Shown here piece after piece: positions 1 through 18,043 of a stretch of 26,046 nt of DNA. Under the pieces are notes generated by a model. That model worked only from the letters and a program-made list of their open reading frames with translations. It had not been told where the DNA came from and did not search any database. Position 1 is the stretch's first letter, and every line of letters starts with the position of its first letter. The stretch lies in the IMG/VR virus record IMGVR_UViG_3300036985_002547, positions 1 through 26,046 of that record. One strand, written 5' to 3'. Source of the stretch: a virus. The position numbers and the translations under genes are program-made.

Positions 1-73
1 ATCGTTTCAGGTACACCCAAAACAAAGAGAGCAGAAACATTGTCATCCCGAATGCGTAGAAATGAACATCCAT
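1..73 (-). CDS. Partial small membrane protein, cut by left edge
   Basis: An ATG at 73-71 opens a frame that stays open for 24 codons to the window edge. The translation begins MDVHFYAFGMTMFLLSLFW and is strongly hydrophobic from about residue 8 to 22, as for one membrane-spanning helix. It starts 20 bases after the stop of the previous gene on the same strand, fitting the close spacing of this operon. I see no clear ribosome binding site, and only the N-terminus is present, so the protein cannot be identified. It could be a chance frame. Confidence 0.4.
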   Translation of the reverse strand, partial: MDVHFYAFGMTMFLLSLFWVYLKR

Positions 74-93
74 TGAGGAGTCGCCCGGGGCTA

Positions 94-414
94 TCACGAG
101 TCTAGTTCTCCGAGTTCTCGCAGAAGGGAAAACAGGTCAAAGCCTGCCTGCATAGTCAAGTGCTCGTAGTCATCTCGGGCATTTTCGGGAGTGTAGGTGT
201 TCTCTCCTAAAGATCGGAGCATCTGCGAAAAGTAAGCCACAGTTGAGGTGAGTGTCAGTATTATGTCGCCACACAACTCCTCGACAGTAGCCTTGTCGCT
301 CGCGCACTCATGACCAAACATATCCTCAGGAGTCAGGGTTGCGCTACACTCGGGGCATCGGCGCATAGCCATATGGGCAAATACTCGTAGAAACTCGTTG
401 CTGTCAGTAGTCAT
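94..414 (-). CDS. Small unknown protein with a Cys-pair (zinc-ribbon-like) motif
   Basis: A 106-aa protein read from the ATG at 414-412, whose ATGA overlaps the TGA of the preceding gene, so translational coupling decides the start; a longer in-frame start at 429 would lie inside the upstream gene. Near residue 19 it has RRCPECSATL followed by GHEC about 15 residues later, which looks like a small zinc-binding knuckle (CxxC, then H/C). The rest is predicted helical with a hydrophobic stretch EELCGDIILTLTSTVAYF. I do not recognise the family. It is the second gene of the transcription unit driven by promoter P-A. Confidence 0.65.
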   Translation of the reverse strand: MTTDSNEFLRVFAHMAMRRCPECSATLTPEDMFGHECASDKATVEELCGDIILTLTSTVAYFSQMLRSLGENTYTPENARDDYEHLTMQAGFDLFSLLRELGELDS

Positions 415-833
415 CGCGCCAACGCCCAAGTGTGATACCCAATACGGTTGTTCAGGTCAAGAGCGTCAAATGTGCTTACGCCATAATCGTCTATGACATA
501 CACGAACTCAGCGCCACACAGGTCATTCTCCAAGTCTTTAGGCCATAAGGTAATCCAACTGTTGAGGTCATCAGCGTCATCGTGTATATCACCGTATCCA
601 GCAACCCGACTCGGAAGAGTCGCGTCTTCTTTTGCGTGTTGATCTACGATGCTCCATGAGAAGTTTCTCATAATCAAGGTATCAAGAACCTTCGCATACC
701 CGTCCCGGCGAACTAATGCGCCAAGCGTCGGGACCATTCTCTCCGGGTAGTTATCCCAATGTGCGTATCGGCCGCCGTACACGGCAGTGTCTCCCTCGCC
801 AGCTTTTATTGCGATTATTCCTCTAGTAGCCAT
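411..833 (-). CDS. Conserved phage protein of unknown function (MATRG... type)
   Basis: A 140-aa protein starting at an ATG preceded by GGAGG with 8-base spacing. It is the first gene after promoter P-A. The N-terminus MATRGIIAIKAGEGDTAVYGG, then AHWDNYPERMVPTL, and later GAEFVYVIDDYGVSTF, resembles, from memory, a family of small phage proteins of unknown function that begin MATR/MATRS and carry an H(W/Y)DGYP motif. No enzyme motif is visible. Being the lead gene of a separately promoted unit suggests a regulatory or host-takeover role rather than a structural one, but that is inference. Confidence 0.75.
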   Translation of the reverse strand: MATRGIIAIKAGEGDTAVYGGRYAHWDNYPERMVPTLGALVRRDGYAKVLDTLIMRNFSWSIVDQHAKEDATLPSRVAGYGDIHDDADDLNSWITLWPKDLENDLCGAEFVYVIDDYGVSTFDALDLNNRIGYHTWALAR

Positions 834-865
834 AGCGTAATCCTCCCTGTAAGTGTGAACGGAGT

Positions 866-940
866 GTCCACTTCAGGAAGTATAGCCGACCCGAGTCGGC
901 AGGTCAAGGATTAAAGGGAGATTTCTTTAGAAATCTTTTT
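866..940 (-). promoter_or_regulatory. Promoter P-A with operator-like palindrome and upstream AT box
   Basis: On the minus strand: TTGACC (907-902), 17 bases, TATACT (884-879), about 45 bases before the ATG at 833. The spacer is filled by the inverted repeat GCCGAC-TCGG-GTCGGC (900-885), a likely operator. Eighteen bases upstream of the -35 lies AAAAAGATTTCTAAA (940-926). The 75-bp block matches P-B at 21561-21635 at 72 positions. Confidence 0.85.
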
Positions 941-942
941 CG

Positions 943-1389
943 TCAGGCTTCGGGGTCCGTTATCGGCTCCGATGTGAATACCGGATCGTCAGCGTCAGGC
1001 TCAACTTCTTCGGTGACATTTATTACGACGTCTGCTTTTGGCTTCTTCTTGCCTGAGGGCGCTTCGCTGTATTTAGCGATGCGAGCACCATACGCCGTGT
1101 GACAGGCCTGACTAATAGACAGCAGTATCGCACCCTGAGCAGCTGAGGGTTCTTCTTCTGCCTCGACTGCGATGACTCCGTGCGAGCCTGCTCGTAGCAC
1201 TAGGACTTGACCTGACGCTGTGATGAGAGCGAGGGCAGAATGTAGGGCCTTGCTTAGGGCAGTCTCCGAGTCGTCAGTGCTTACCGTGATAACGGTCAAG
1301 TTCTCACCCTCGCTCCGGGAGCGATAGTTAGCGCGAGAGTCTAGGTAGAACGGAACATTGGACGCTTTTAGAGCTTCGTGAAGGTTCAT
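943..1389 (-). CDS. Unknown protein at the end of the tail gene run
   Basis: A 148-aa protein with ATG start and AGGAG at 9-base spacing, 12 bases after the preceding collar-domain gene stops, so probably last of the tail operon. The N-terminal ~100 residues look like a compact alpha/beta domain (TVITVSTDDSETALSKAL, then QVLVLRAGSHGVIAVEAEEE). The C-terminal ~45 residues are charged and low-complexity (SGKKKPKAD, then an acidic EEVEPDADDP tail), probably disordered. I do not recognise a family. The gene's stop codon is only three bases from the AT box of promoter P-A, so a new transcription unit begins immediately after it. Confidence 0.7.
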   Translation of the reverse strand: MNLHEALKASNVPFYLDSRANYRSRSEGENLTVITVSTDDSETALSKALHSALALITASGQVLVLRAGSHGVIAVEAEEEPSAAQGAILLSISQACHTAYGARIAKYSEAPSGKKKPKADVVINVTEEVEPDADDPVFTSEPITDPEA

Positions 1390-1401
1390 TCGTAGTTACT
1401 C

Positions 1402-2730
1402 CTAAGTCTTGACGATGTAGTACAGAACGGCGTAAGGCTGAAGGTTCCCGGACGAGGCGGCGACAGAGGAGGCTCCCGTGTTAGGAGTGGACTCTGATCC
1501 CGTACTAGGCGTAGATACGCCTCCCGACGTCCCGGAGAAGGGAGGCACATCGACATTGTGATCGTGAACACCTGATCCTACGAGACTCCAGTCCTTGTCG
1601 TAGCTGTGAACGTGATAGTTCGGTGTACCATAATCTACGGTTGGCGAAAGTATATCCGTAGAGGCATCCGACGTCATAGTAGGTGAACCCGTATAAGTAG
1701 TCATAGCTGCTGCCGCTGAGGCAGAACCCGTGTGCGTATGCGTACTATTAGTCGTCTGTCGCATTAATACGCCGTGATCGTGATTCTCGAGGTTCGAAGT
1801 GTTAAGCAGGTCGTGATAATGACTGCCGCCGTTGCCCGTAGTACCCGAGCCGGTGTAGGAGTGATCGTGAAGGGCTGTACCACTCTGAAAATCGGCGTGA
1901 TCGTGGTCAATGGTGTGCGTATGAGGCATCGTGTGCGTATGAGGCATCGTGTGCGTGTGAGGTGCTGTCGAGGTCTTGGAGCCTCCTGTTTCTCCTAGAC
2001 TGTCAAACTCAGTCTGAGAAGCGTCATACATAACGGGCACTCGTCCAGTCAGTATCGGAACCCTAAACATTCCCGAAGCCGGGGCAGCCTGTCCTCCCGA
2101 CGTGGCGTAGGTGCTTCCGAGCACAGCATACAGCGCAGGGTAGGCAGTAGTCGAGTAGGCAGTTCCGTCACATAGCAAGTATCCCGTAGGAGCAGAAGCG
2201 CCTGCGTAGGCCGATACCGTTCCACTCGGAAGAGTCGCCCCGATAACGGTGGCTTGAGATCGAAGGTTAATAACGTCTGCGCTCGTAATAGTACCCGTAG
2301 CTGCGGCGACGACGACCCGAGCCAACTGAAGAGACGAAGCTGGCACTGCAGGATCTACAGGAGTAGCCGAAGCGACACCCGTAACGACAGCAACAATAGC
2401 GTCATCGCCTGCCGCGCCTCCGGCGTTCGGATCGCGAACCTGAAGAATGACTATGTCGTACCTAGTGCCAGACCCGGGTGCTGCGGCTATCGCTAATGAC
2501 GGTGTAGAAGTCTCTGCTCGACATAAATACTTGCCCTGAAATGACTGGTCAGTACCAGCAACTACAGCAACTCCAGCCGCCACATCTACCGTCATAGCGG
2601 CAGGTGACGAAGCTGTCACCTCAAAAGAGGCAGATCCTATGACCCCGGCTTCCCAAAGGTTATCGTATAGGACTCGGTCAATGCGAGCAGGGTAATCTAG
2701 ATTCTGAAGCCAGTTAGGTGTGACAGTCAT
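1402..2730 (-). CDS. Tail fibre / receptor-binding protein with collar domain
   Basis: A 442-aa protein. The first ~160 residues (MTVTPNWLQNLDYPARIDR... then RYDIVILQVRDP) look like a fibre base that attaches to the tail. Residues ~165-235 are a phage tail-collar domain: LPSGTVSAYAGASAPTGYLL, then TAYSTTAYPALYAVLGSTY and FRVPILTGRVPVMYD. The C-terminal ~200 residues are rich in His-X-His pairs (PHTHTMPHTHTMPHTHTIDH), a pattern that in T4 long-tail-fibre-type tips coordinates metal ions, and end in QPYAVLYYIVKT, typical of such fibres. Start: no good Shine-Dalgarno; TAGTAT lies 6 bases before the ATG. Probable role is host recognition at the virion surface. Confidence 0.85.
   Translation of the reverse strand: MTVTPNWLQNLDYPARIDRVLYDNLWEAGVIGSASFEVTASSPAAMTVDVAAGVAVVAGTDQSFQGKYLCRAETSTPSLAIAAAPGSGTRYDIVILQVRDPNAGGAAGDDAIVAVVTGVASATPVDPAVPASSLQLARVVVAAATGTITSADVINLRSQATVIGATLPSGTVSAYAGASAPTGYLLCDGTAYSTTAYPALYAVLGSTYATSGGQAAPASGMFRVPILTGRVPVMYDASQTEFDSLGETGGSKTSTAPHTHTMPHTHTMPHTHTIDHDHADFQSGTALHDHSYTGSGTTGNGGSHYHDLLNTSNLENHDHGVLMRQTTNSTHTHTGSASAAAAMTTYTGSPTMTSDASTDILSPTVDYGTPNYHVHSYDKDWSLVGSGVHDHNVDVPPFSGTSGGVSTPSTGSESTPNTGASSVAASSGNLQPYAVLYYIVKT
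1921..1956 (-). repeat. 18-bp tandem repeat encoding a His-rich PHTHTM unit
   Basis: Two perfect copies of an 18-base unit (1921-1938 and 1939-1956), with a diverged third copy on each side, encode the repeated PHTHTM motif of the collar fibre. Such exact in-frame repeats can expand or contract by slippage without breaking the reading frame. Confidence 0.75.
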
Positions 2731-2765
2731 ACCAGCATACTACACTACGCGAGTCCTAAAGCGAG

Positions 2766-3098
2766 TCATTCGAGTTTCATAATGTACGGGAACGGAGCGA
2801 TAGGAGCGATAGTAGGCAGGACTATGTTCGCACCTGACTTATACGCAACAGGCAGTACGGCCCACAGCGCCGGGTACAGAGTCTGACCGCCGACTATCGT
2901 GGCACCGTTCAGAAGTGCCCAACCTGTCGGGGCAGTAGGAGCAACATATAACAAGATAGTCCCTACGGGACTGAGCGCAGAACTAGCGACGTCGTGGCGG
3001 TGTGCTAAAGCTTCGAGGTTGATAAGACGACTCTTACTGTCGGAGATCGAGGTTCCTAGAGCATCTACCGGGGAAGTAGTAGTCCGGGGACGAGTCAT
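2766..3098 (-). CDS. Short tail-collar-domain protein
   Basis: A 110-aa protein. Residues 1-40 are a predicted helical stalk (DALGTSISDSKSRLINLEAL). Residues ~44-110 are a short tail-collar domain: SPVGTILLYVAPTAPTGWAL, GQTLYPALWAVLPVAYKSG, then IVLPTIAPI and the terminal YIMKLE. The ~0.3-kb size and the close downstream fibre gene suggest an adaptor or a second receptor-contact protein. The ATG is preceded by AGGAT, which could act as a weak Shine-Dalgarno or as the -10 of a leaderless transcript (see promoter 3105-3133). It lies next to the repeat array at 3127-3303. Confidence 0.8.
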   Translation of the reverse strand: MTRPRTTTSPVDALGTSISDSKSRLINLEALAHRHDVASSALSPVGTILLYVAPTAPTGWALLNGATIVGGQTLYPALWAVLPVAYKSGANIVLPTIAPIAPFPYIMKLE

Positions 3099-3104
3099 AG
3101 AGCA

Positions 3105-3133
3105 ATCCTAGCCTGTCGAGGAGTCAGCGTCAA
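3105..3133 (-). promoter_or_regulatory. Possible promoter giving a leaderless fibre transcript
   Basis: Minus strand TTGACG (3133-3128), 17 bases, TAGGAT (3110-3105). The expected transcription start falls on the A of the ATG at 3098. The -35 sits inside the last unit of the repeat array. The -10 is weak (4 of 6), and the same bases could serve as a ribosome binding site, so this is tentative. Confidence 0.45.
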
Positions 3134-3303
3134 TCAGTAATGGTCACGGGTAATCACGTATAATCAGTCTCAATCACGAATAATCACGGTAATCAGCAGT
3201 AATCAGCCTCAATCACCGTAAACAGCGATAATCAGCAGTAATCAGCAGTAATCAGCAGTAATCAGCCTCAATCACCGTAAACAGCGATAATCAGCAGTAA
3301 TCA
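3127..3303 (-). repeat. Array of ~18 imperfect 10-bp units (TGATTACTGC type)
   Basis: Read on the minus strand, units of 9-10 bases start with TGATT (sometimes TGTTT or TGACC) and follow each other without gaps: TGATTACTGC, TGATTATCGC, TGTTTACGG, TGATTGAGGC and variants. Six units form a 59-bp higher-order repeat that occurs nearly twice (3303-3245, then 3244-3196), and units diverge toward 3127. The first TGA is the stop codon of the gene ending at 3301. Because 10 is not a multiple of 3, TGA recurs in all three frames. The 10-bp phase places each unit on the same face of the helix. Confidence 0.85.
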
Positions 3304-4377
3304 GGGTTGCTCTACCTCAAGGGCCTGCATACGAACCGTCACTAGACCAGTGAATGACTGCGTAATAGTCTGTGTCACTACATCGCATATGACGGATTGA
3401 GCAGGCACTGTCACTATCGGACTCGTTGGATTACTAGTGTTGTAGACGACTGTCGCAGGCCTGACTACCGTGATAGTCTCGCCAAGAGCGTAGTCTGAGT
3501 CTGTGAAGAAGCGATGCGGCTCTAGCGAGAACTCGTAAAGTATCTGCGGACTCTGAGCAGTTGTCACTATGCCGGTTGCCTGCTCGGAGAGGTTGGCTTG
3601 AGTTTGCTCTTGGGGTAGTCCTCTGAACTTCTCCCACCTTCCCCGGGGATCAGTAGCGAGAGTGGCAGTAGTAGCTATGACTGCTGTCGTAGAAACTGAA
3701 TCACCCGTCACTACGGCGACGTTACCGAAGAGCGCCGACCCACTTGGCTTCGTAATCGTCAGAGCGTTAGCACCGATGACGACCGGCTGAGGGTTCGGAG
3801 TCGGAGGAGTTGTAGTGGACTGCGTGACGACAAGCCCCATAGAAGGTGTAATCTTCCACACTACTCCTGCGTCAATCTGCGACAGTTCTACGATTGAGTC
3901 CAGTATGTTAGCCCCAATCGAGTACGAGCGATCTCGAGGCACTACAGGCCCTGCTGAGGTAAGTGTAATACCATAGTTGCCGTTCGTCTGAGACTGAGTA
4001 TGTGCTATGAGGTTGTAGACAATGTCGCCCTGAGATACTGCCGTGTACGAGAGGGCAGAGTTCACATAACGCGATCCGAGAAGCCGCCTATAACAACAGC
4101 AAGTCACTCCGATAGTGTTCGCACCGTCATAGTTCCATTCCTGAACTACCTCAAGAACTCTAAACCTCTCAACTAAAACGCTGTCAAGATACAGCCATAT
4201 GTCTGTCTCTAACTCCTGTATTTGAGTGCCGGGGATACTGTCGCCCGGAGAGGCGAACGAGAAGGTACAGCCGTCATCAAGGTTCTTCGTCATCGACCAT
4301 TGGTCAAAGAATGTCAGTACGTCCGTAGGTCCTGATCCCGAAGAAGGGCCGAAGGTGACTAGGTAAGTGCCAGCCAC
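3301..4377 (-). CDS. Gp37-like minor tail protein
   Basis: A 358-aa protein that follows the Dit-like gene by 3 bases. The N-terminus LVTFGPSSGSGPTDVLTFFD, the early DGCTFSFASPGD and WLYLDSVLVERFRVLEV, and the central LDSIVELSQIDAGVVWKITP fit the siphovirus Gp37-like tail proteins (ReqiPepy6 Gp37 type), which form part of the tail tip baseplate hub. The order tape measure, Dit, Gp37-like, collar proteins is the usual one for actinobacterial siphoviruses. The stop codon is the first unit of the 10-bp repeat array. Family assignment is from motifs only. Confidence 0.75.
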   Translation of the reverse strand: MAGTYLVTFGPSSGSGPTDVLTFFDQWSMTKNLDDGCTFSFASPGDSIPGTQIQELETDIWLYLDSVLVERFRVLEVVQEWNYDGANTIGVTCCCYRRLLGSRYVNSALSYTAVSQGDIVYNLIAHTQSQTNGNYGITLTSAGPVVPRDRSYSIGANILDSIVELSQIDAGVVWKITPSMGLVVTQSTTTPPTPNPQPVVIGANALTITKPSGSALFGNVAVVTGDSVSTTAVIATTATLATDPRGRWEKFRGLPQEQTQANLSEQATGIVTTAQSPQILYEFSLEPHRFFTDSDYALGETITVVRPATVVYNTSNPTSPIVTVPAQSVICDVVTQTITQSFTGLVTVRMQALEVEQP

Positions 4378-4380
4378 GAC

Positions 4381-5259
4381 TCAGGAGTACCAGTTGTCGT
4401 ACCAGCACAATGTAAATGCCGGATCACCTGAGTATGAGGCAGCCTGCAGGCGTATCACATTCTGTCCCGGGACGAGTCTGATTTCATCCCAAGTCCAATC
4501 CTGAAAGTTCGTATAGCCATATACGGAGTCCGTAGGGTCGTTGTTGCGGAAGATAGTGCGCTCTTGAGTGTCGATGTTTATCGTCTGCCCGGCAGTCAAT
4601 GTCACTCCAACGAAGGTAATCGTCACGCTGTTTATTAGAATCTCCGGGTCAGTCACCTCAGCCGTAATAGTTCCTGTCCAGTCCATCGGAGCATTCCCTA
4701 ACGGAGTGAAGTATGTGTACCCGTACACCGGAGAGAATGGATATTCACGGTCAAAGTCAAGATCGTACACACGCCCGTCCTCGGCATTACCCGTCATCAA
4801 CGCCACAGCGCACGTCTCATCTATGGCTGTGGTGTAGGGATCCTGTGCTACCCACTGAAGAACTAGAGAAAGGTACTTAGGTGCATCTACTACTAGAGGT
4901 CCATCGACTCCCCTGACCGTTAGGGACCTGATAGTGGTGACGGTAGCGGCAGGAGGAGGACACCCGGGAGCCGACTGTTGCACTGACCACACAATCTGCG
5001 GACGATAACGAGGTGACAGATATGGAGTTACTAGGTCAAGGAGATCCTGCGTAGCCATCTTCGTTTGATCCAGTCTCAGACCTACCGTGACGGGCCTTGA
5101 GCCGAGATAGGTCGTAGTGTCTACCGATCCGTCAGAGAGGGATCTAGGAGTAGTCACCTCGCGCACCTCGGGCCACCCAATCTGAAAGTCAGTTACGACG
5201 AATCCATCAGCGCAGTCAAGGTCAAGTTGTCCTAAGGTAGATTCCGTCAGATACATCAC
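4381..5259 (-). CDS. Distal tail (Dit-like) protein
   Basis: A 292-aa protein immediately after the tape measure. The first half (DCADGFVVTDFQIGWPEVRE, then DTTTYLGSRPVTVGLRLD and RYRPQIVWSV) matches the pattern of siphovirus distal tail proteins, which form the ring joining tail tube and tip; the C-terminal half (INIDTQERTIF..., PGQNVIRLQAAS) looks like the second beta-sandwich. The GTG at 5259 overlaps the tape measure TGA, and GGAG lies 9 bases before it; the adjacent ATG one codon on is an alternative start. It acts in the virion tail tip. Confidence 0.8.
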   Translation of the reverse strand: MMYLTESTLGQLDLDCADGFVVTDFQIGWPEVREVTTPRSLSDGSVDTTTYLGSRPVTVGLRLDQTKMATQDLLDLVTPYLSPRYRPQIVWSVQQSAPGCPPPAATVTTIRSLTVRGVDGPLVVDAPKYLSLVLQWVAQDPYTTAIDETCAVALMTGNAEDGRVYDLDFDREYPFSPVYGYTYFTPLGNAPMDWTGTITAEVTDPEILINSVTITFVGVTLTAGQTINIDTQERTIFRNNDPTDSVYGYTNFQDWTWDEIRLVPGQNVIRLQAASYSGDPAFTLCWYDNWYS

Positions 5260-7538
5260 TGTGAGAAACTCCTTGCCCGTTCAGCTACCATAACCTTAGC
5301 CGCGAGTAGTTGAGCATCTATCGGCTCGACAAAAGTAGCATTTTGAATACTGACTGTCGCCCCGGAGTTGCCCCGAGCCAGTGCGGCGAGTCCGGACTGC
5401 TCCAGTAGTTCTAAGGCTCGCTGAGGACGTGACAGAGGAATGACTGCCTCAGCGCCAGCCTCAGCAATAATCGCAGGCTGACGAGAGTTGAAGATACCGC
5501 CCTGAGAGAGTTTGGGCGCATCACCGAAGGCAAAATCTATGTCTACGCCGAAGTCCCTCTGTAGACTCTTTATCTGCTTGGCCGTGAGTGCTTTGCTCTT
5601 GAGTTTTATCTTATAGTTACTGATGACACCTCGAATACCTGCTACGAGGGCTTCCCCGGCAGTCACGCCTGCCTGCTTAAACGTCGTGGCAGCGTTCAGC
5701 CCTATAGAGTTTCCGATGCTCTGTACCTCTGCTGTTAGTTGATTAGCCTTTAGCACTCCATCGGCAGTCGAGAGGATTTCGGTAGCAATCTTAGAACCTG
5801 TTTTTGCCCCTGCCGCTAATACTTGATCTAACGCCGGGCCTGACAAGTTAGCCGCTATAAGCCGATTAACGAGCACACCAAAATCCTTGACCTCGGCGGC
5901 TTGAGACTCTAGTCCTGCTATAAAACCTGTTTTAGTTTCTGCTCCAGTGTCATACGCCTTCTCGAACGAGAACGAACTGGTGACTGCTCCTGATACCTCT
6001 TTGGCGAAATCACCGAAGGCTGTTTGAGCGTCTTTCAGCACTTCCTTAGCCTTGGACAACTTATCGGTGAACGCAGCACCGAAGGAGTCACGGAGCGCCT
6101 TTATGGCTCCGGCTGTCTTGTCCGCAGCGTCAGTAGTCTTTTTCAGTCCTCCGGTGACTACTGGAGTCACGTCGGTGACTACTGTGCCGAGATCCTGAAA
6201 TGATTTCATAGATTCTTCTTCGGCTTTTCTGAAGTCTGTAGCGTCCTTCGTAGCCTTACCTGCCGCCTCGCCTATTCGCCCGAACGACACTTCACCTATC
6301 TCACCGATCTTGCCTATGTTGATACCGATCTTGCCGAATAGCCCGGTGAACTTGTTTATGCCTGCGGATAAGGTGTTGATAACCTTGATCCACGCGTTTA
6401 TCATGAACTCAAAATAACCGATGACGAGATTGAGGACCTTATTGACACCGTCCCGAAACCAGTCAATCTTCTTATACGCGAGGACGAACGCGCCAATCAG
6501 AACAACAATAGCGGCGACCATCAAGCCAATAGGATTTGCCATCATTTGAGCATTTAGCAACTTCTGAGCCGCTGACGCTATCACCGTGTAGGCCGCCTGT
6601 ACCTTCAGCGCAGCGTTCACTGCGAGAACCGCTATGGCAACTCCGGCGATCGTAGCGCCTAAGATCAGGGCGATGTTACGGTGTTCGAGGAAGAACCCTA
6701 CCACTACTCGAGTGGCTGCCGATAAAGCTTCCATAGCAGGAACAAGCAGGTCGCCAATCTTTGCCTTCATGTTGGTCATTTCGGCGGCAAGTATTCTCTG
6801 TCGGTTGGCGAGTCCGTCCGACGTGTTAGCGAAGTCGCCCTGAGTTTTATTAGTCTGCTCCATTAGAGCACCGTGCCGAGCCAGCACCTTCTCCTGCTCT
6901 GAGAGTTTGCCCGTTCCGTCACCTATTCCATTCGCTACGGCGTAGGCCTTAACGGCAGCCTCGGAGAGGTCTATGCCGAACCTCTTAAGTGGCTCAGTCT
7001 CTCCGGCGAGTCCACTCTGAAAGATTCTAGCAGCGTCGGCTACCTCAAGGTTCATAACAGAGGCAAAGTCAGCAGCACGCCCTGTTATGGACTCGATTGT
7101 TGCCGTCACGTCCCCTCCGGGACCGGCAATCTTCGTAGCGAACGACGAGAACTGAACGGCGAGGGAGTTGAAATCTGCCGAACTCAAGCCGACGGCAGTT
7201 GCGGAGTCCTTAGATAACTGAAGTATGCCAGCACTCGCCTTGCCGAAGGTGACATTGACCGCGTTTATAGACTCGCCTAAGTTGCTTGCCGCACCTACGG
7301 CACTCTTGGCTAAGGCTCCTATTCCGGCTAATGCTAGGCCTGCCGGGATTGCCGCCTTCTGTATGCCACCCTTGAGTTGATCGCCAAACGACTTAACACT
7401 GCCACCAGCATTCTTAGAGAACGCGTCAGCGGCTTTTTCGGCCTTGTCTAGTTCTGAGGTAACGCCCTGCTTCAGGTCCTGTCCGAACTTTGACGTATCA
7501 GCTCGAACCTCTACATAAGTTTCTCCTACGATAGGCAC
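5256..7538 (-). CDS. Tape measure protein
   Basis: A 760-aa protein, the usual size class for siphovirus tape measures. N-terminus PIVGETYVEVRADTSKFGQD is typical. Residues ~275-355 hold hydrophobic helices (IALILGATIAGVAIAVLAV and IGLMVAAIVVLIGAFVLAY) thought to help DNA ejection; the middle is Ala/Lys-rich helical; the end has GIFNSRQPAIIAEAGAEAVI, a common tape-measure C-terminal motif. At roughly 1.5 angstrom per residue the tail would be about 110 nm (inference). It lies directly after the frameshifted chaperone gene, as expected. The start is a GTG without a Shine-Dalgarno; TAGAGT sits 6 bases upstream. Confidence 0.92.
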   Translation of the reverse strand: MPIVGETYVEVRADTSKFGQDLKQGVTSELDKAEKAADAFSKNAGGSVKSFGDQLKGGIQKAAIPAGLALAGIGALAKSAVGAASNLGESINAVNVTFGKASAGILQLSKDSATAVGLSSADFNSLAVQFSSFATKIAGPGGDVTATIESITGRAADFASVMNLEVADAARIFQSGLAGETEPLKRFGIDLSEAAVKAYAVANGIGDGTGKLSEQEKVLARHGALMEQTNKTQGDFANTSDGLANRQRILAAEMTNMKAKIGDLLVPAMEALSAATRVVVGFFLEHRNIALILGATIAGVAIAVLAVNAALKVQAAYTVIASAAQKLLNAQMMANPIGLMVAAIVVLIGAFVLAYKKIDWFRDGVNKVLNLVIGYFEFMINAWIKVINTLSAGINKFTGLFGKIGINIGKIGEIGEVSFGRIGEAAGKATKDATDFRKAEEESMKSFQDLGTVVTDVTPVVTGGLKKTTDAADKTAGAIKALRDSFGAAFTDKLSKAKEVLKDAQTAFGDFAKEVSGAVTSSFSFEKAYDTGAETKTGFIAGLESQAAEVKDFGVLVNRLIAANLSGPALDQVLAAGAKTGSKIATEILSTADGVLKANQLTAEVQSIGNSIGLNAATTFKQAGVTAGEALVAGIRGVISNYKIKLKSKALTAKQIKSLQRDFGVDIDFAFGDAPKLSQGGIFNSRQPAIIAEAGAEAVIPLSRPQRALELLEQSGLAALARGNSGATVSIQNATFVEPIDAQLLAAKVMVAERARSFSQ

Positions 7539-7564
7539 AGCAACACTCTAGGGCACAGCAACAC
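7534..7564 (-). repeat. 13-bp direct repeat spanning the tape measure start codon
   Basis: GGCACAGCAACAC (plus strand) occurs at 7534-7546 and again at 7552-7564, 18 bases apart. The first copy covers the GTG start of the tape measure; the second supplies a decoy GTG followed two codons later by a stop. Confidence 0.7.
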
Positions 7565-7578
7565 GCAAACAGGTGTCA

Positions 7579-7610
7579 ATCCCAAAGAGACACGCCCGAA
7601 TCTTTGGGAT
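7579..7610 (-). other. Stem-loop between chaperone and tape measure genes
   Basis: A 10-bp perfect stem (ATCCCAAAGA at 7579-7588 with TCTTTGGGAT at 7601-7610) and a 12-base loop, extendable by GTC/GAC past one mismatch. No U-run follows on the minus strand, so it is more likely an RNA processing or attenuation structure than a classical terminator. Confidence 0.55.
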
Positions 7611-7626
7611 CGACAGGACCTGTACG

Positions 7627-8225
7627 CTAACTGACAAAAGAAGTCCAAGCGTCCTCGTCTGAGCCGTACCAAGACGGGACTCCGCGAATCCGATAATCCC
7701 GGGGAGGAGTCAAGGCCTCCTCGATTGCCTGAAGGTCATCTTCCGAAGCGTTCTCACGAATCGCATACAGATAGGTATTGACAGCACGATCAGCAGAAAG
7801 GTAAATAGCATCTACGCCTCGGACGGAGCAGTAGCCATCAAACTGTTGCCAGTTTCTGACAATCCAGTTGATAACGACTGCTCCTGCGTAGGGTTTATCT
7901 GACCAGTGTATTCCTGTACGAGTTCTTGAATCATCTCACTAAGCATTCCGAAATCTAAGTCCGGGGCTACAGTGCCGAAAGCTTCGTGCGAACTAGGCTC
8001 TAGGAAGTGCCGAATAATGTCGGTGAATGTCACCCTCTTCAGGTGTGCCGCAGCAATGTCATTCATACCCTCCGGGGCAGGACTCTGTAGGGCCTCAACA
8101 AGGTCTGCGATCTCGATAAGGTCCACCGAAGAGCGTAGTCGAATGGTCACGTCGTCGATCACCCACTCAATAGGATTAGCCCTACGACGGGCTGTGGCTG
8201 TGATGAAGGCGCGTTGTCTTGTCAT
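7627..8225 (-). CDS. Tail assembly chaperone, long form by -1 frameshift
   Basis: Slippage at AAACCCT (7896-7890) after 112 codons moves ribosomes into the -1 frame, adding 87 residues to give about 199 aa ending at the TAG at 7629-7627. The extension (YAGAVVINWIVRNWQQFDGY, then GVDAIYLSADRAVNTYLY, DDLQAIEEALTPPRDYRIRG and a final SWYGSDEDAWTSFVS) is compositionally a normal protein, lies in the only open frame there, and has no good start of its own. Paired short and long chaperones (lambda gpG/gpGT type) directly before the tape measure are a general siphovirus feature. They bind the tape measure and recruit tail tube subunits. The shift itself is inferred, not shown. Confidence 0.75.
7812..8225 (-). 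CDS. Tail assembly chaperone, short form (gpG-like)
   Basis: A 137-aa zero-frame product from ATG 8225 to TAG 7814-7812. The body (IEWVIDDVTIRLRSSVDLIE, VTFTDIIRHFLEPSSHE, then LSEMIQELVQEYTGQINPTQ) is acidic and helical, like chaperones encoded just upstream of tape measures. The frame is open further upstream to 8480, but that part overlaps the HK97-gp10-like gene and is not used. No clear Shine-Dalgarno precedes the ATG; instead an 8-bp hairpin (8228-8249) ends two bases before it, and TACCAT lies 7 bases upstream. Confidence 0.8.
   Translation of the reverse strand: MTRQRAFITATARRRANPIEWVIDDVTIRLRSSVDLIEIADLVEALQSPAPEGMNDIAAAHLKRVTFTDIIRHFLEPSSHEAFGTVAPDLDFGMLSEMIQELVQEYTGQINPTQEQSLSTGLSETGNSLMATAPSEA
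7890..7896 (-). other. -1 ribosomal slippery heptamer AAACCCT
   Basis: Minus strand A AAC CCT, read in the zero frame as ATA AAC CCT (codon starts at 7898, 7895, 7892), fits the X XXY YYZ rule. Both frames are open through the site. A 6-bp hairpin with a GCAA tetraloop (AAACTG/CAGTTT, 7855-7840) lies 34 bases downstream, farther than usual for a stimulator. Confidence 0.75.
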
Positions 8226-8227
8226 AG

Positions 8228-8249
8228 TGTTTATGGTAGCACATAAACA
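8228..8249 (-). other. Hairpin just before the tail chaperone start codon
   Basis: TGTTTATG (8228-8235) and CATAAACA (8242-8249) form a perfect 8-bp stem with a 6-base loop, ending two bases before the ATG at 8225. It occupies the position where a ribosome binding site would be and could tune chaperone expression. Confidence 0.5.
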
Positions 8250-8253
8250 GGTC

Positions 8254-8691
8254 TTATTTAGCGGCAGTAAGAGCGTCCCTGAGAAAAGGACGTGCCTTGA
8301 CACCCCGGCTTCGTTTAGCGTAGACGAATTGCTGAGTTGCGCCGCCCCGATACCTTCGTGTACCGGAGCCAGTGTTGTTGATTGCGGCCCACCGTAGTAC
8401 GCGAGCGCGAACTGGCAGAATGTACCCTCGACCTGCCTCAACTCCGGTTCCTTCGTGAACATACATCGCATACTCAACATTCGTACCGACTCGCCCGATA
8501 GGACTACCGTTTGCTGACCTCATCTCCATCGCTAAAGAAGCTCGAAGTCTTCCCTCGTCTACAGGGGCATTTCTCCTTGCCTGATTTAGAACTCGATTAG
8601 TACGGCGCTGTATGTCTGCCCATACTGCTCCTCGAGGAGAGGAGAGGAGCGTTCGTAGCGCCTCTTGGTCAATCTTTAGTGCGGCAGCCAC
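8254..8691 (-). CDS. HK97 gp10-like head-tail / tail completion protein
   Basis: A 145-aa protein starting at a GTG that overlaps the preceding stop by one base (TAGTG). The motifs QARRNAPVDEGRLRASLAME, GRVGTNVEYAMYVHEGTG and the closing VKARPFLRDALTAAK are the hallmark of the HK97 gp10-like family (tail completion or head-tail joining, 120-150 aa). The insert with YRGGATQQFVYAKRSRG before the PFLRDAL end is typical of actinophage members. It precedes the tail chaperone and tape measure, consistent with a role at the neck. Confidence 0.88.
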   Translation of the reverse strand: MAAALKIDQEALRTLLSSPRGAVWADIQRRTNRVLNQARRNAPVDEGRLRASLAMEMRSANGSPIGRVGTNVEYAMYVHEGTGVEAGRGYILPVRARVLRWAAINNTGSGTRRYRGGATQQFVYAKRSRGVKARPFLRDALTAAK

Positions 8692-8984
8692 TAACTGAGG
8701 CCTAGTGCCTTCGCTACGCCAGCCGCTATAGAACCTCCAACAGCACCACCAACAACTGCCACACCAGCAAGGAAGTAGCGCACCCCGGACACCTGAGTTT
8801 CTATGTTGTGAATGCGCTGCTCAAGGTCTTTGAGGTGATCTGAGCGCCGTTCTTCATTTTGGTCTATCTTGGCTGACAGCTTGTCTACCTTCTCAATAAT
8901 GTGTCCTAGCCTCTCAAACAGAACAGCAACAGCAACCTCCGGAGTCGTATCCGTCAGTATTTTAGGAGAACGAGAGGCAGCCAC
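8691..8984 (-). CDS. Coiled-coil protein with a C-terminal membrane segment
   Basis: A 97-aa protein from a GTG with AGGA about 8 bases upstream. Residues ~20-65 are a charged helical segment with heptad-like spacing (ERLGHIIEKVDKLSAKIDQN, then KDLEQRIHNIETQVSGV), and ~68-97 is a Gly/Ala-rich hydrophobic stretch (YFLAGVAVVGGAVGGSIAAG). This architecture resembles XhlA-type haemolysin/holin-associated proteins and small phage tail-module proteins. It sits among tail genes, not next to the lysis cassette, so its role is uncertain. Confidence 0.7.
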   Translation of the reverse strand: MAASRSPKILTDTTPEVAVAVLFERLGHIIEKVDKLSAKIDQNEERRSDHLKDLEQRIHNIETQVSGVRYFLAGVAVVGGAVGGSIAAGVAKALGLS

Positions 8985-8993
8985 GTCGTTATC

Positions 8994-10046
8994 CTAGTCT
9001 ATCCCGGCTGAGAAAAGCATCATCTTGAGATTGCCCTGAAGACGTTCGTTAGCAGGATCATACTCAAGGGCCTTCTGACACTGATACACGGCTTCGGGAT
9101 ACTGCTCTAACCTCCACAGCGCAATCGAGGCAAGATCGTGAGGACGAGCGCCCCAAGCCTCAGCCTCACACAGGTATTCCATCTGTTTCTCTGTTATCTC
9201 GAGTGCGCGACTCGTAGCAAGCAGACAGGCCTGCCAGTCAGAAATGTCGTGAAGATACTGAGCAAAATCAACAAACGGCTCGCGCCGATTAGGTGCTTCG
9301 AGCGTAGCCAACGTGTACCACCTCATCGGATCGTGACCCGATTTAGCAATAAAGCGCATCGCTGCTGCCCTCTCCGGAGTCCACAGAGCAGTAGGCAAGG
9401 CGAGGTATCTCTGAAACTCCTCTACGGCTTCGGGATAGCGTTTATGATAGTAGAGTTCTCGAGCATAATAGAATGCTGTGCGATCATCTGTTGGGGACTC
9501 GCGCTTGGCTAGTTCGAGTAGAGGGAAGTATTGTGAGCGTGATTTAGTGCTGTCCGGGTGATGATTTATCTCAAGGGCAATCCACTCCTGAATCTCTCCC
9601 GACGTTGCCGTAATCGTTTCGTGAACCGGGTGCTTCCAGCGATAACCCGTTCTGCGATGTATCTTGTCGCCGCCGTATGTCAGCCCGGGCGAGCCGTCAT
9701 CTTGATACGACCATACATACTGATAGCGCGGACGAGTCGTACTAGCCTTGACTGTCTCTAAGTGTTGTCGCCACCCCGGGACGAGCACTTCGTCAAGGTC
9801 AAGTGCGATACAGAAGTCCACGTCCGAGGGCAACAGTGCCAAAGAAGCATTTCGAGCGTCATCAAATCGCCAAGGAGAAATAGAAATCGGGACTACGGTC
9901 ACTCCGAGGCCCTTAGCAATCTTTATTGTCTTGTCGCTAGATCCCGTATCAGCAATCAACAGGTAGTCTGCCTCTCTCGCAGACTCTGCCCACCTCGCAA
10001 CAAACTGCTCCTCATTTAGCGCAATAGCATAAACAGCAATCTTCAT
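8994..10046 (-). CDS. Family 2-type glycosyltransferase with C-terminal TPR repeats
   Basis: A 350-aa protein. Residues 1-90 are a GT-A fold donor-binding domain: MKIAVYAIALNEEQFVARWA, DTGSSDKT (33-40), the RFDDARN motif (~60-66) and DLDE (83-86), the metal-binding DxD-type site. A central part (KHPVHETI, YYARELYYHKRYPEAVEEFQ) and residues ~250-345 (YPEAVYQCQKALEYDPANER) are tetratricopeptide-like helices that could bind an acceptor protein. It is transcribed with tail genes, following the fibre and its chaperone, so a likely substrate is a virion protein such as the Thr-rich collagen-like fibre; this is inference. Modification of host surface sugars is the alternative. Confidence 0.85.
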   Translation of the reverse strand: MKIAVYAIALNEEQFVARWAESAREADYLLIADTGSSDKTIKIAKGLGVTVVPISISPWRFDDARNASLALLPSDVDFCIALDLDEVLVPGWRQHLETVKASTTRPRYQYVWSYQDDGSPGLTYGGDKIHRRTGYRWKHPVHETITATSGEIQEWIALEINHHPDSTKSRSQYFPLLELAKRESPTDDRTAFYYARELYYHKRYPEAVEEFQRYLALPTALWTPERAAAMRFIAKSGHDPMRWYTLATLEAPNRREPFVDFAQYLHDISDWQACLLATSRALEITEKQMEYLCEAEAWGARPHDLASIALWRLEQYPEAVYQCQKALEYDPANERLQGNLKMMLFSAGID

Positions 10047-10121
10047 CCTTGTCCCCTCGTCAAAGACCTGAGTCTAATCGGCAGCGAGGCTACGAGGTAA
10101 CTCCTCTAAGCGATCTCGATG

Positions 10122-10487
10122 TCAGTGTGAGTGCGGTTCTTCGTTCGGTCCGTGAACGTGATCTTCCTCCGGTGGAAGAATCTGAACACTATAGGTTGCC
10201 CACCATAGCGGCCTGCCCGTACTCGGTGAATCCTGAAGCTCGTAACTTCCTTCACTGAGTTCTTCTAGTTCTACGGTAGAAATGTCTCTAAGATACTGCC
10301 TCCACTCGCGCCATTCCCTTTTCGTATCTTCGGCAAGCTGACAGTCTGATACTTGAGTCCAGTCGGAGTCCAACAATAGCGAGTTGCGGATCAACTTAAG
10401 AGCACTGTGATACTCGACAGGATTCTGCGCTCGAATAGGTGTTACTCCGTCTATACAGGCAGTGCTTTCGCGTAGGTAGATTTTCAC
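10122..10487 (-). CDS. Tail fibre assembly chaperone-like protein (APC type)
   Basis: A 121-aa protein from a GTG with AGGAG at 6-base spacing, directly after the collagen-like fibre gene. The core RNSLLLDSDWTQVSDCQLAE followed by WREWRQYLRDI is the pattern of the phage tail assembly chaperone family (Phage_tail_APC), in which a D.DW or D.T...D motif precedes a W..YRQ.LRDI helix. Members usually sit next to tail fibre genes and assist their folding or attachment, which fits the position here. The C-terminus is His/Glu-rich (EEDHVHGPNEEPHSH). Confidence 0.75.
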   Translation of the reverse strand: MKIYLRESTACIDGVTPIRAQNPVEYHSALKLIRNSLLLDSDWTQVSDCQLAEDTKREWREWRQYLRDISTVELEELSEGSYELQDSPSTGRPLWWATYSVQILPPEEDHVHGPNEEPHSH

Positions 10488-10511
10488 TTTATTCTCCTGT
10501 TCGTACCTTTG

Positions 10512-13329
<2,818 letters not shown>

Positions 13330-13330
<1 letters not shown>

Positions 13331-13827
13331 TAGATACTCCAGACCTTCTGTGAGAGTCCGATTGTAACGCGAGTCTCAACGGCAATACACCCACCCTGCG
13401 CTCCGGCGATAGTCTGCGACAGGTTTGCTCGCATCCAGTCCAGAGGGAGATCGGCACAGTCAATAGCGTTCCACACAATCGCACCGTCCTCGAGGAGCGT
13501 TGAATATGCGTTCTGAAGATCCTGCGTAGAGGGAGGTTGCCCACGATCACTCACACTAGGAAGACACCTCACTAGCAGAACAGCGAAGTCAATAGTAATG
13601 TCGCCCTTGTCGCAGTATTCCGGGCCGTTGGATTCACTAGGGAAGACTACCGAGCGATACGTGCGCTCCGGGGCTACAGCCAACAACCCACAACAGTCAT
13701 CCCACGCAACCTGACCAGCCGCCACATACGCACGATTTATAGGATCGCGCCCTGCCTGAACTAAGGCATCGTCTACGAGACACAAGAGCCAGTTACCGAC
13801 TGAGTAAGAAGAACGTCCATCGTTCAT
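13330..13827 (-). CDS. Tail completion / tail terminator-like protein
   Basis: A 165-aa protein with ATGA overlap to the preceding gene and GGAGG six bases before the ATG. It has a Cys-containing segment VAWDDCCGLLAVAPERTYRS followed by ITIDFAVLLVRCLPSV and a C-terminal AGAQGGCIAVETRVTIGL. The pattern of a Cys pair, an inner strand with a VLLVRC(L/V)P motif and a final QGGC.... strand is one I associate with the actinophage protein encoded between the head-tail adaptor and the tail genes, thought to complete the tail or neck. The exact role is inferred from position. Confidence 0.6.
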
Positions 13828-14534
13828 CGCACCCTCCGGGGTTGATCCGGTGAATAGACACCTGAGGCCTGATGAAGCCTGCCGGGATTCACGGATCGAA
13901 TAAACGCATCAGAAATAGGCAGTCCAATGCGATTCTGAGCCATTAGAACAGCAGCGTCCCCGAGATCGACTGTAACGCCCTGTCGAGTGACGGATACGAC
14001 ATTTGAGGCTAGTCTGCAGTCTCCTCCGGTGAGTCCTGCTAGAATCTCACACGCGAGTTCTCCGAGGGCTAGTTGTCCTAGTGACGGTACATCTATCCCG
14101 TAGGTATAAGAGACCACGATAGGAGCAATCGTGCACTCCTGCTCGCAGGGCCAGCACTCTCCGAGTCGCGCTAGGAGTCCTCTCTGAAGCTGATACTCGT
14201 CAGGGTCCAGTATGTCGCCATTGACTACGACAAGGTCAATAGATCGCACCGGAGTCTGAGCAAGCCGAAGTCGGCAACATAGTCGAGGATACGCCAAACC
14301 CCATTCACGCTGTAGTCTCCACTCTACCCCGGGTCCGAAATCATAACCCCAAGGGAACGCACACGTTCCAGCACACGGCATAGAGTATTCTTCGGTAGTG
14401 GAGCACACGCCATACCGACGTCCTGACAGCGCCCATAGCATTTGCTGTGCGCTCTCTCGGGCTACGAGAACAAGGTCTTCGTCCTCCTCAAGAATGTCAC
14501 AAGGCCATTTGATCGGCCAGTCTTCGCAGTTCAC
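13824..14534 (-). CDS. Head-tail adaptor (connector) protein, Cys-rich actinophage type
   Basis: A 236-aa protein from a GTG at 14534. The N-terminus MNCEDWPIKWPCDILEED, then QMLWALSGRRYGVCSTTEEY and CAGTCAFPWGYDFGPG, followed by RLAQTPVRSIDLVVVNGDI and a helical end GQLALGELACEILAGLTGGD, are features of the head-tail adaptor family found after the capsid gene in actinophages (HK97 gp6-like function). It would sit under the portal and join head to tail. The paired cysteines may bind metal or form disulfides. Alternative: another neck protein. Confidence 0.72.
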   Translation of the reverse strand: MNCEDWPIKWPCDILEEDEDLVLVARESAQQMLWALSGRRYGVCSTTEEYSMPCAGTCAFPWGYDFGPGVEWRLQREWGLAYPRLCCRLRLAQTPVRSIDLVVVNGDILDPDEYQLQRGLLARLGECWPCEQECTIAPIVVSYTYGIDVPSLGQLALGELACEILAGLTGGDCRLASNVVSVTRQGVTVDLGDAAVLMAQNRIGLPISDAFIRSVNPGRLHQASGVYSPDQPRRVR

Positions 14535-14596
14535 GGCCTAATCCTATACCTTCCTGTGTTCTCTACTGTACCTCTGTTGTTTCTTATCTTAAAAGA

Positions 14597-15253
14597 TTAC
14601 GGGGTAAGTGGAACGCAACCTGCAGTATCTGCAGGAGGCTGAACGTCTGTCACTACAACTCCGAACACATCGCCAGCAGGGAACGACACGATAAAAGGGT
14701 TAGAGGCGTATGGAGTAGTTCCCCAAGTAGCCGGTGCGGCGAAAGCTTCGCCCATAATCGAGGCTGTGAGCGAGCCGTTCTCAATAGTCAAGTCGCCGTC
14801 TACCTTGCCATTACGAACGAACGGCACAGAGAAATAACCCCACTCCGGGTTCGCAGGATCGCAGTCAGCGCCTGTCCTCTTAGTCCATACCTCAAGCGCA
14901 AAGGCCGTATCGTTAGGACTCGTACCCCACGACGCTCCGATAGTGTCGCCTCCGTCTACGACTGGATTAGCCGCAGTAAGAATGTCCAGCGCGTCAGGGT
15001 TCAGTTCGGCAAACTCAATAGTCACATTGACTCTCTTGAGAATGTCCGGGTCTTTGTCGTTGATACAGAGGTCGCCCCACGCAGATTTCTGCACATACTC
15101 GGTTCCAGCCTCAAACTCACCCGACAGGGTGACGCTAATGAAGCAATCCGACACGACGGTAGAGCAAGAGCCGTAATCAACATCTCCGCAGGAGTCGAGT
15201 CGAGTCAGTCGAACGGTCTTACCTTTTATTGACTTAAGAATCTGTGTTGCCAT
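14597..15253 (-). CDS. Major tail protein
   Basis: A 218-aa protein with a strong ribosome site (AAAGGAG, 7-base spacing). The sequence LTRLDSCGDVDYGSCSTVVS, then SGEFEAGTEYVQKSAWGDLC, the central FALEVWTKRTGADCDPANPEWG and FVRNGKVDGDLTIENGSLT fits the major tail tube protein of actinobacterial siphoviruses, which repeats as rings along the tail. In this family the LD.CG start, the E.WT...G..C turn and the ENG.LT strand are recurrent. It comes before the adaptor gene, earlier than in lambda-like order, but this order is seen in actinophages. Confidence 0.8.
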   Translation of the reverse strand: MATQILKSIKGKTVRLTRLDSCGDVDYGSCSTVVSDCFISVTLSGEFEAGTEYVQKSAWGDLCINDKDPDILKRVNVTIEFAELNPDALDILTAANPVVDGGDTIGASWGTSPNDTAFALEVWTKRTGADCDPANPEWGYFSVPFVRNGKVDGDLTIENGSLTASIMGEAFAAPATWGTTPYASNPFIVSFPAGDVFGVVVTDVQPPADTAGCVPLTP

Positions 15254-15265
15254 TGTATTTCTCCT

Positions 15266-16048
15266 TTAGGGAATCGTTCGATCAAGTGTTGTTTCTATTT
15301 TAGCCACATAGCAATCCCACCCAAGCACATAGTCTCTCTGAGCAACATACGACACTTCGTTGTCGGCCATAGCAATCGCAGACTCTCGGGTGTCTATGTC
15401 ACCTCGGTACAGGAGGATAGGCCCGGTAGCGAAGATTGCCGAGGTATTGACAATCGGTGACACCACGTCGTATCCGGCTCCTACGATGACAGGAGTTCCG
15501 AGGAGAGTCGTCATACGACCTCCCGATACCGTGAGGTTAGACCAGAGCATAGTCGCCGTCTGCCGACTCATGTGGATAATGCCAGTCCCGGGATACACCG
15601 CACCGATCTGCTGTTCAGCGACAGCTAGCGCATAGGTGACTGTGTTCGTGAGGACGTTGATAGTGATGTCAGGTGTAGCGTCCATATCAGTCCATAGCCG
15701 CTGTTCGGCGGCGAACTGTTCGCCATTGACTAAACGCTGAACTGTTTGATCTCTGTGCTCAGCAAGCGAGTGTCCGGGAATAGCGTCTGTGTTATACGCA
15801 TAAACAGTGAACGGTTCGTACTGCAGGATCGTACAGGCAGAGTTACTGACTAAGTCATCTCGCTCTTCTGCGATACAGGGACCAGCCGTAATGTAGTCCT
15901 CAATACACGCTTGAGTTTGCCACTGAACTCCGAGTCGCCAGTGTTCATCTGTCGTCAGTCGAGGTTCAGCAACAGAGAACAGGCCGAATGGATGTGGAAC
16001 TACTACGGGTGCTTCTACGAGTTGCCACGTATTTAAGTTCGTTCCCAT
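15266..16048 (-). CDS. Second capsid-like structural protein
   Basis: A 260-aa protein 40 bases after the capsid gene. The N-terminal part has WRLGVQWQTQACIEDYITAG and CTILQYEPFTVYAYNTDAIP, the middle a helix AAEQRLWTDM, then TGIIHMSRQTATMLWSNLTV, LLGTPVIVGAGYD, a strand FATGPILLYRGDI, and a final YVAQRDYVLGWDCYVAKIET. This order (E-loop-like start, long helix, PGTGIIHMSR, GTP.V.G.GYD) resembles the P-domain half of HK97-fold capsid proteins and proteins next to the capsid gene in actinophages. It could be a minor capsid, penton or decoration protein. No homology search was run. Confidence 0.6.
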   Translation of the reverse strand: MGTNLNTWQLVEAPVVVPHPFGLFSVAEPRLTTDEHWRLGVQWQTQACIEDYITAGPCIAEERDDLVSNSACTILQYEPFTVYAYNTDAIPGHSLAEHRDQTVQRLVNGEQFAAEQRLWTDMDATPDITINVLTNTVTYALAVAEQQIGAVYPGTGIIHMSRQTATMLWSNLTVSGGRMTTLLGTPVIVGAGYDVVSPIVNTSAIFATGPILLYRGDIDTRESAIAMADNEVSYVAQRDYVLGWDCYVAKIETTLDRTIP

Positions 16049-16088
16049 TGACCTGTCCTGTCTGTTACCTGTTAGTGCTTTTCTGAAG

Positions 16089-17669: not shown

Positions 17670-17763
17670 TACTGCCTCCGTCAAATGGGGATTTGGATAG
17701 AACACGATGGAGCACGGCTCACACTCGCTATCCCGGTGCTAGGCACTCAGGAACTTGTGTGTC

Positions 17764-17824
17764 ACTCTATAGCTTCTCAACGATGTTGTCAAGCATCATC
17801 AGGCATTTATTTTAGAAATCTTTT
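17764..17824 (-). promoter_or_regulatory. Promoter P-MCP with the shared upstream AT box
   Basis: Minus strand TTGACA (17792-17787), 17 bases, TAGAGT (17769-17764), about 95 bases before the capsid ATG. AAAAGATTTCTAAA (17824-17811) lies exactly 18 bases upstream of the -35, as in P-A and P-B. The GC-rich spacer palindrome of those two is absent. The leader can fold a 7-bp stem with one bulge (AGCACCGG...CCGTGCT). Confidence 0.8.
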
Positions 17825-17834
17825 GACGGCTGAA

Positions 17835-17844
17835 AAGTCGACTT
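17835..17844. other. 10-bp palindrome AAGTCGACTT upstream of P-MCP
   Basis: A perfect palindrome five bases beyond the stop codon of the small MGCGC gene and just upstream of the AT box of P-MCP. It could be a protein binding site, but it is short and may be chance. Confidence 0.3.
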
Positions 17845-17848
17845 AAAT

Positions 17849-18043
17849 CTACGCACTAGCCTGACGGACGGAGCCGCCGATACGATTCGCATAGGCCTGA
17901 GCAGAACCTAAAGAAATAAACGCCCTGTTCGTGAAGACTCCGTTGAGCCATACCTCATACGAACCTTGAGCCTGATTGACTGAGCCGACATTCTGAACTC
18001 TGCCGTCCATAGGTCCACTCTTTTTTCTACACCCACAGCCCAT
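17849..18043 (-). CDS. Small MGCGC protein of the head module
   Basis: A 64-aa protein, ATG overlapping the protease TAA by one base. It begins MGCGCRKKSG, and the C-terminal half is SYEVWLNGVFTNRAFISLGS followed by QAYANRIGGSVRQ. Small proteins starting M(G)CGC with a YEV..(D/N)G...... A..YA.R.GG end lie next to protease or capsid genes in many actinophages. Function unknown; the Cys pair at the extreme N-terminus could bind metal. Last gene before promoter P-MCP. Confidence 0.75.
   Translation of the reverse strand: MGCGCRKKSGPMDGRVQNVGSVNQAQGSYEVWLNGVFTNRAFISLGSAQAYANRIGGSVRQASA

Follow-up and report, generated by a model that had tools for sequence, protein, structure and literature searches.

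The window, i.e. the whole stretch of DNA analysed here, is 26,046 bases long and makes up an entire IMG/VR record. Compared with the relatives described below, which measure 41-50 kb, it is part of a larger phage genome. It contains a block of virion genes (tail fibre, tape measure, collagen-like gene, head-tail adaptor, major tail protein, major head protein and portal), which read on the minus strand, as do the two promoter cassettes A and B. The capsid protein has distant kin in cultured actinobacterial phages (about 35% identity). The collagen-like gene is a long repeat gene (10512-12968), wherein a 41-bp stretch matches the collagen triple helix repeat gene of Actinomycetia phage DSL-LC01 at 97.6%; this was the only match in a near-DNA search of window positions 1-20000 against phage records. 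In addition, a gene at 8994-10046 resembles beta-1,4-glycosyltransferase, and decamer repeats of the GTAATCAGCA type, some of them intergenic, stand in tandem at 3125-3333 (families D4 and D5). A 46-nt inverted repeat (96% complementary, 15-nt loop) at the extreme end of the record, 25940-26046, is probably an assembly artefact of the contig end.

The first-pass annotation had described a 75-bp block at 866-940 that recurs at 21561-21635. The repeat was confirmed (72/75 identical, three differences), and it widens to 855-940/21550-21635 at 93%. Each copy carries, as proposed, TTGAC(C/T), a 17-bp spacer with GCCGAC-TCGG-GTCGGC, and TATACT; these elements read on the minus strand, which the earlier description had not given. 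The features of the cassettes, of the genes behind them and of the capsid-gene promoter are as follows.

94-429, minus strand: second small gene behind promoter A; TTG start, uncertain
411-833, minus strand: first gene behind promoter A, 140 aa; 45 nt from the -10 box to the ATG, with AGGGAGGA ahead of the ATG
866-940, minus strand: promoter cassette A (upstream hairpin, -35, palindromic spacer, -10, first leader bases), 72/75 identical to cassette B
879-884, minus strand: -10 box TATACT of promoter A
885-901, minus strand: 17-bp spacer of promoter A, TGCCGACTCGGGTCGGC; 16-bp palindrome at 885-900, constrained core CCGAC-N4-GTCGG at 886-899
902-907, minus strand: -35 box TTGACC of promoter A; with the -10 box, 10/12 consensus positions
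919-940, plus strand: hairpin AGATTTC-TTTA-GAAATCT and then a T run, part of the duplicated cassette A
17764-17792, minus strand: capsid-gene promoter TTGACA-17-TAGAGT; upstream motif AAAAGATTTCTAAA as in cassettes A and B; no palindrome
20559-20810, minus strand: third gene behind promoter B, 83 aa; family also in G002, G013, G015, G018 and G019
20807-21265, minus strand: second gene behind promoter B, 152 aa; family 63
21262-21525, minus strand: first gene behind promoter B, 87 aa; relative in G002, 46% over 67 aa
21561-21635, minus strand: promoter cassette B, duplicate of cassette A
21574-21579, minus strand: -10 box TATACT of promoter B
21580-21596, minus strand: 17-bp spacer of promoter B, TGCCGACTCGGGTCGGC; palindrome at 21580-21595, operator core at 21581-21594
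21597-21602, minus strand: -35 box TTGACT of promoter B
21614-21635, plus strand: hairpin and T run as in cassette A

Both promoters head short runs of small genes without assigned function amid virion genes, in agreement with the earlier description: promoter A precedes 411-833 and probably also heads 94-429, and promoter B precedes three genes. Among the genes scanned behind the two promoters, none matched a PHROG. Homologues of 411-833 in other viral contigs show 38-52% identity, and the palindrome promoter is absent from all eight records searched, so the operator does not travel with the gene. The G002 relative of 21262-21525 is likewise headed by a palindrome promoter (G002 46493), and a member of family 63 lies directly behind the G002 palindrome promoter at 5831; a search of viral contigs for relatives of 20807-21265 confirmed none. 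From the -10 box to the ATG, cassettes A and B have 45 or 48 nt with a ribosome site before the ATG, and folding of these leaders gave stabilities not clearly above those of shuffles. The hairpin at 919-940 is terminator-like on the plus strand, against antisense transcription; its z is -1.1 on that strand, which is not significant, and the sense-strand form (AGATTTC-TAAA-GAAATCT) reaches -5.4 kcal/mol with a z of -2.8.

Within the window, the 16-mer palindrome occurs with up to three mismatches at just two places (four matches, counting both strands), a number reached by 0 of 100 shuffles. Meanwhile, hexamer pairs of the sigma-70-like type are at chance level in window positions 1-19999 (11 observed vs 11.8 in shuffles). 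Cassettes A and B are the product of one duplication and therefore not independent, and with hexamers at the chance rate the window alone gives weak to modest evidence. The 121-bp cassette used as a search query returned short, chance-like matches and nothing else.

Scanning TTGNNNNGCCGACNNNNGTCGGCTANNNT against 2.9 million viral contigs gave 17 stretches in 11 contigs. Thirteen records including the window, and later 17, were read, three of them having been found as capsid relatives. By their genes, the contigs with TTGNNNNGCCGACNNNNGTCGGCTANNNT and the three capsid relatives form one lineage, in which most contigs have virion genes in common with the window and the remainder have other genes in common. 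The lineage consists of uncultured phages of the actinobacteria type. The palindrome lies in the -35/-10 spacer at 43 sites by a first rule and at 44 distinct sites by a second; the spacer is 17 bp in nearly all of these promoters and 18 bp in a few, and nearly all are oriented with the genes. The "two-site regulon" suggested earlier proved too narrow, in that the window covers just 26 kb of a genome and every near-complete relative has several palindrome promoters. Among 440 palindromes matched in composition, CCGAC-N4-GTCGG came first in seven of the nine genomes bearing the core. In these nine genomes, 35 of 47 core sites stand in the promoter frame TTG-17/18-[TC]AnnnT, whereas of 711 other palindromes built alike (5-bp arms around a 4-bp centre) only 2 do. 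The Fisher p of about 1e-47 is descriptive, because the same data had drawn attention to the frame and some sites are inherited from a common ancestor; the contrast is far beyond what choosing the rule could yield. The palindrome set is a real, multi-site, phage-specific operator-promoter regulon exceeding two sites.

Palindrome pairs 46-47 bp apart are found at G018 17451/17497, G002 31729/31776 and G020 3200/3246, where one member of each pair has no clear promoter frame; they precede an HNH-type gene (G018, G002) or a different gene (G020) and are possible double operators. The repeats GGCTCGAGCC of G021 and TCCTCGAGGA of G023 are operator-like by count and were ruled out, being outside promoter frames. 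Other features of the lineage concern DNA modification: in L054 (G018 19901-39900), the stretches 3002-7098 and 10273-11067 hold ParB_N, Tet_JBP oxygenase, amino acid:DNA transferase (ADDT), P-loop nucleotide kinase and DpdA genes, a run of probable DNA-hypermodification genes, and an N6/N4 DNA methylase is encoded in G020. It is probable that the DNA of this lineage is modified.

The first-pass annotation had named loss of the palindrome with retention of the hexamers, in close relatives, as an observation that would speak against its proposal. The opposite was seen: the palindrome is kept while flanks, central bases and downstream genes have changed. At the 44 promoter-type sites, constraint is limited to the 14 bp of CCGAC-N4-GTCGG, of which the ten arm bases hardly vary and the four central bases do. 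The 16-bp palindrome described earlier is present at both window sites, but across the group its sixth, outer G-C pair is observed 25 times vs 22.8 from column composition, and an operator extended to this pair was rejected, the pairing being hardly above that composition. Some promoters occupy shared slots: window 885 and G018 13449 each follow a homologue of gene 943-1389, and window 21580, G002 5831, G018 40265 and G015 1839 each follow a homologue of gene 21726-22292. In G021, the palindrome has moved by 3 bp within an 18-bp spacer. This shift indicates that the palindrome is not merely part of an extended -10 element, and that the conserved thing is an operator rather than a fixed polymerase contact.

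A perfect stem with a variable 4-nt loop might also suggest that the palindrome functions by forming a hairpin, in DNA or in RNA, like those in the virion-RNA-polymerase promoters of phage N4. However, the stem sequence is invariant and shows no co-variation, the palindrome lies upstream of the predicted start, so the RNA from that promoter would not include it, the hexamers are of the host type, and a giant virion RNA polymerase gene is not among the called genes; we find this explanation hardly credible. Likewise, near-identical cassettes in G000 (two copies) and G001 (5550-5578, near-identical to cassette A), duplications in G018/G013 that take in the gene start along with the cassette, and the hairpin inside the cassette would fit a promoter cassette that moves among gene modules by recombination in the manner of T4-type PeSLs, with the palindrome as an incidental passenger. 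Such spreading probably does occur; however, the core persists at promoters that differ from one another in upstream sequence, central bases, -10, leader and gene, so spreading does not explain the conservation of the core, and as an account of the palindrome it is very improbable.

The capsid promoters (window 17792-17764, G002 9344, G018 44738) provide a natural contrast, having good hexamers without the CCGAC palindrome. The AAAAGATTTCTAAA upstream motif is common to the capsid promoter region (17788-17824) and cassettes A and B (family D9). The position of the start codons bears on the promoters themselves. Transcription had been predicted to start 6-8 nt past the -10, and in 29 of the 44 group promoters an ATG falls 6-7 nt past it, with none at 8-19 nt, in accordance with that prediction. 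An ATG at the predicted +1 is separate evidence for genuine promoters, and the messages from these 29 promoters look leaderless. Leaderless messages are common in actinobacteria. Cassettes A and B of the window belong to another class, with long leaders.

Among the relatives, G003 is the only one without the palindrome. It has the same virion genes and no CCGAC palindrome, and carries ten near-identical promoters with CAAGC-N9-GCTTG abutting the -10 (3249, 4717, 14584, 15423, 17102, 20296, 30998, 41554, 42279 and 42968; L048-L050). Their -10 is mostly TAGATT, and the start codon lies 7 nt on, i.e. they are leaderless. A AGATTCTTT-like motif stands upstream of most of them. The G003 palindrome promoter was absent from all other viral contigs searched, and G003 is probably an outgroup. 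Outside the phages, the promoter-type pattern gave 17 single hits in 84,980 bacterial and archaeal species, scattered over unrelated phyla and near the handful that a pattern of 18 fixed bases should produce by chance in 257 billion; the regulon is therefore specific to the phage lineage.

Phage_integrase, Resolvase and MerR_1 domains were absent from nine records, HTH_3 gave one sub-threshold match, in G021, and neither a clearly recognised repressor domain nor a clear cI/Cro-type gene was found among the genes scanned. End repeats of 114-173 bp suggest that G003, G023 and G024 are complete, which makes the absence of domains meaningful there. The phages of this lineage are probably virulent; with no integrase and no clear repressor domain, a lysogeny-type repressor is unlikely and lysogenic immunity is unsupported. 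The lack of a phage gene with a recognised repressor domain would also fit a host-encoded regulator, e.g. a LexA-like or other two-fold repressor whose switch the phage borrows. Actinobacterial LexA boxes have a related layout, CGAAC-N4-GTTCG, with the same N4 two-fold arrangement. However, no bacterial group is enriched among the scattered hits, the sister phage G003 has a different palindrome in similar slots, and repression by the host would be a hindrance to a phage that lacks lysogeny genes. We therefore regard a host regulator as unlikely, although one with different-looking sites elsewhere would be compatible with the scattered hits.

Each of the nine palindrome-bearing genomes profiled contains families 33, 34 and 35, all of which G003 lacks. 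Family 34 (alignment A1, 77-86 aa; members include L053:18690-18923 and L054:2745-3005) has a predicted four-helix fold (pLDDT 87) and weak matches to HTH_23 (E 0.055), to a viral winged-HTH model (TM 0.69, E 0.49) and to DnaA domain IV (Z 4.5); the helical fold matches, including that to DnaA domain IV, were judged uninformative. Searches of the A1 family against cultured phages and PDB sequences gave no match. In G018, G002 and G020, the A1 gene belongs to a gene run starting at a palindrome promoter, with a second palindrome nearby. A search by the A1 protein alone found four new contigs, G021 among them, and 4/4 have palindrome promoters, which is suggestive rather than proof because these contigs are members of the same lineage. 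Of the helix-turn-helix gene under its own palindrome promoter that the first-pass annotation had envisaged, one part holds in some of the group, where the operon of a small helical protein starts in this way; the DNA binding of that protein is only predicted. The A1 family is the best candidate for the palindrome binder, a tentative assignment that we hold to be rather more probably wrong than right; families 33 and 35 match its pattern of presence and absence. Family 49, considered as a divergent gene conserved everywhere, is most likely an antisense frame of family 30 or of neighbouring head genes.

Taken together, it is likely that 866-940 and 21561-21635 are repressible promoter cassettes, with the spacer palindrome serving as the operator for a phage-encoded DNA-binding protein that is symmetric and probably a dimer. 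The anatomy of promoter and operator, its conservation in phage relatives, the start codons at the predicted +1 and the restriction to one lineage can be read from the sequences; protein binding, repression as opposed to activation, its timing and the identity of the binder are what we infer. A dimer binding CCGAC-N4-GTCGG between the hexamers would cover ground needed by sigma-A RNA polymerase, and all operator-carrying promoters would shut together. In the simplest timing, the early small genes would go off once the regulator accumulates, and the operator-less capsid promoter would stay open. Repression is favoured because the two-fold site is centred in a 17-bp-spaced promoter, where a bound protein excludes RNA polymerase, and because 17-bp spacers come with near-consensus hexamers. 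The palindrome might instead be an activator site, as the poor -35 in G003 (GTGCAA) and in part of G019/G024 (TTGCGC, TTGCCC) would allow. However, the known spacer-acting activators of the MerR family need 19-20-bp spacers, whereas the spacers here are 17 or 18 bp with hexamers often near consensus, and the nine records are devoid of MerR_1; activation is thus quite improbable. A wider interpretation of the repressible promoters is possible yet doubtful: a virulent actinophage lineage may have one self-made shut-off regulator of about 80 aa, acting through a spacer operator at many small-gene, mostly leaderless promoters, and a sister phage may have rewired ten of these to another palindrome within an unchanged layout.

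Almost no uncultured phage has a promoter map, and here the sequence alone yields a consistent set of promoters, an operator and many start sites for a phage group that has no closely related cultured member among the records searched. G003, in which the layout is kept and the palindrome is another, offers by contrast a case for how a whole regulon changes its operator. Moreover, the 14-bp core and the candidate protein of about 80 aa are small enough for one gel-shift experiment.

Several known systems resemble the palindrome promoters in part. In the temperate Streptomyces phage phiC31, which has a known repressor and a serine integrase, the c repressor binds conserved inverted repeats (CIRs). 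As with the CIRs, two-fold operators are scattered here through an actinophage genome and overlap early promoters; unlike phiC31, no integrase was found in nine records and the site is mostly inside the spacer. The palindrome presumably also differs in sequence from the CIRs. MerR-type spacer operators have spacers of 19-20 bp (17-18 bp here) and a MerR-family regulator, for which no MerR_1 match was seen in nine records. For T4-type PeSLs, we know of no operator in the promoter spacer. PeSLs (Arbiol 2010, Comeau 2014, as cited in PMC4503421) are mobile cassettes of promoter and stem-loop between gene modules; in the present lineage, hairpin and promoter occur together, duplicated in G000 and present in G001. 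The stoperators of cluster A mycobacteriophages (L5, TipsytheTRex) are 13-bp, asymmetric and monomer-bound, and also stop elongation (PMC9283540). Cluster A and the present lineage both repeat one short sequence genome-wide at promoters and intergenic places, whereas here it is a symmetric palindrome mostly in the promoter spacer. In cluster K, SAS/ESAS lie ahead of some of the small non-structural genes, with an inverted-repeat consensus that differs between subclusters; each ESAS is a pair of imperfect 17-bp repeats separated by a variable spacer, next to the ribosome-site-like SAS, a GGGATAGGAGCCC element at the start codon (PMC3203893). Repeated sites with inverted repeats ahead of small genes are common to both, but ESAS are not described as lying within the -35/-10 spacer, in which a single 5+5-bp palindrome stands here, with many leaderless starts; no SAS-like element was seen at the palindrome site contexts read. 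Distributed operators are thus already known in actinophages, and the present set differs from each known system by at least one of the following: the absence of a recognised repressor, symmetry, spacer placement and leaderless starts.
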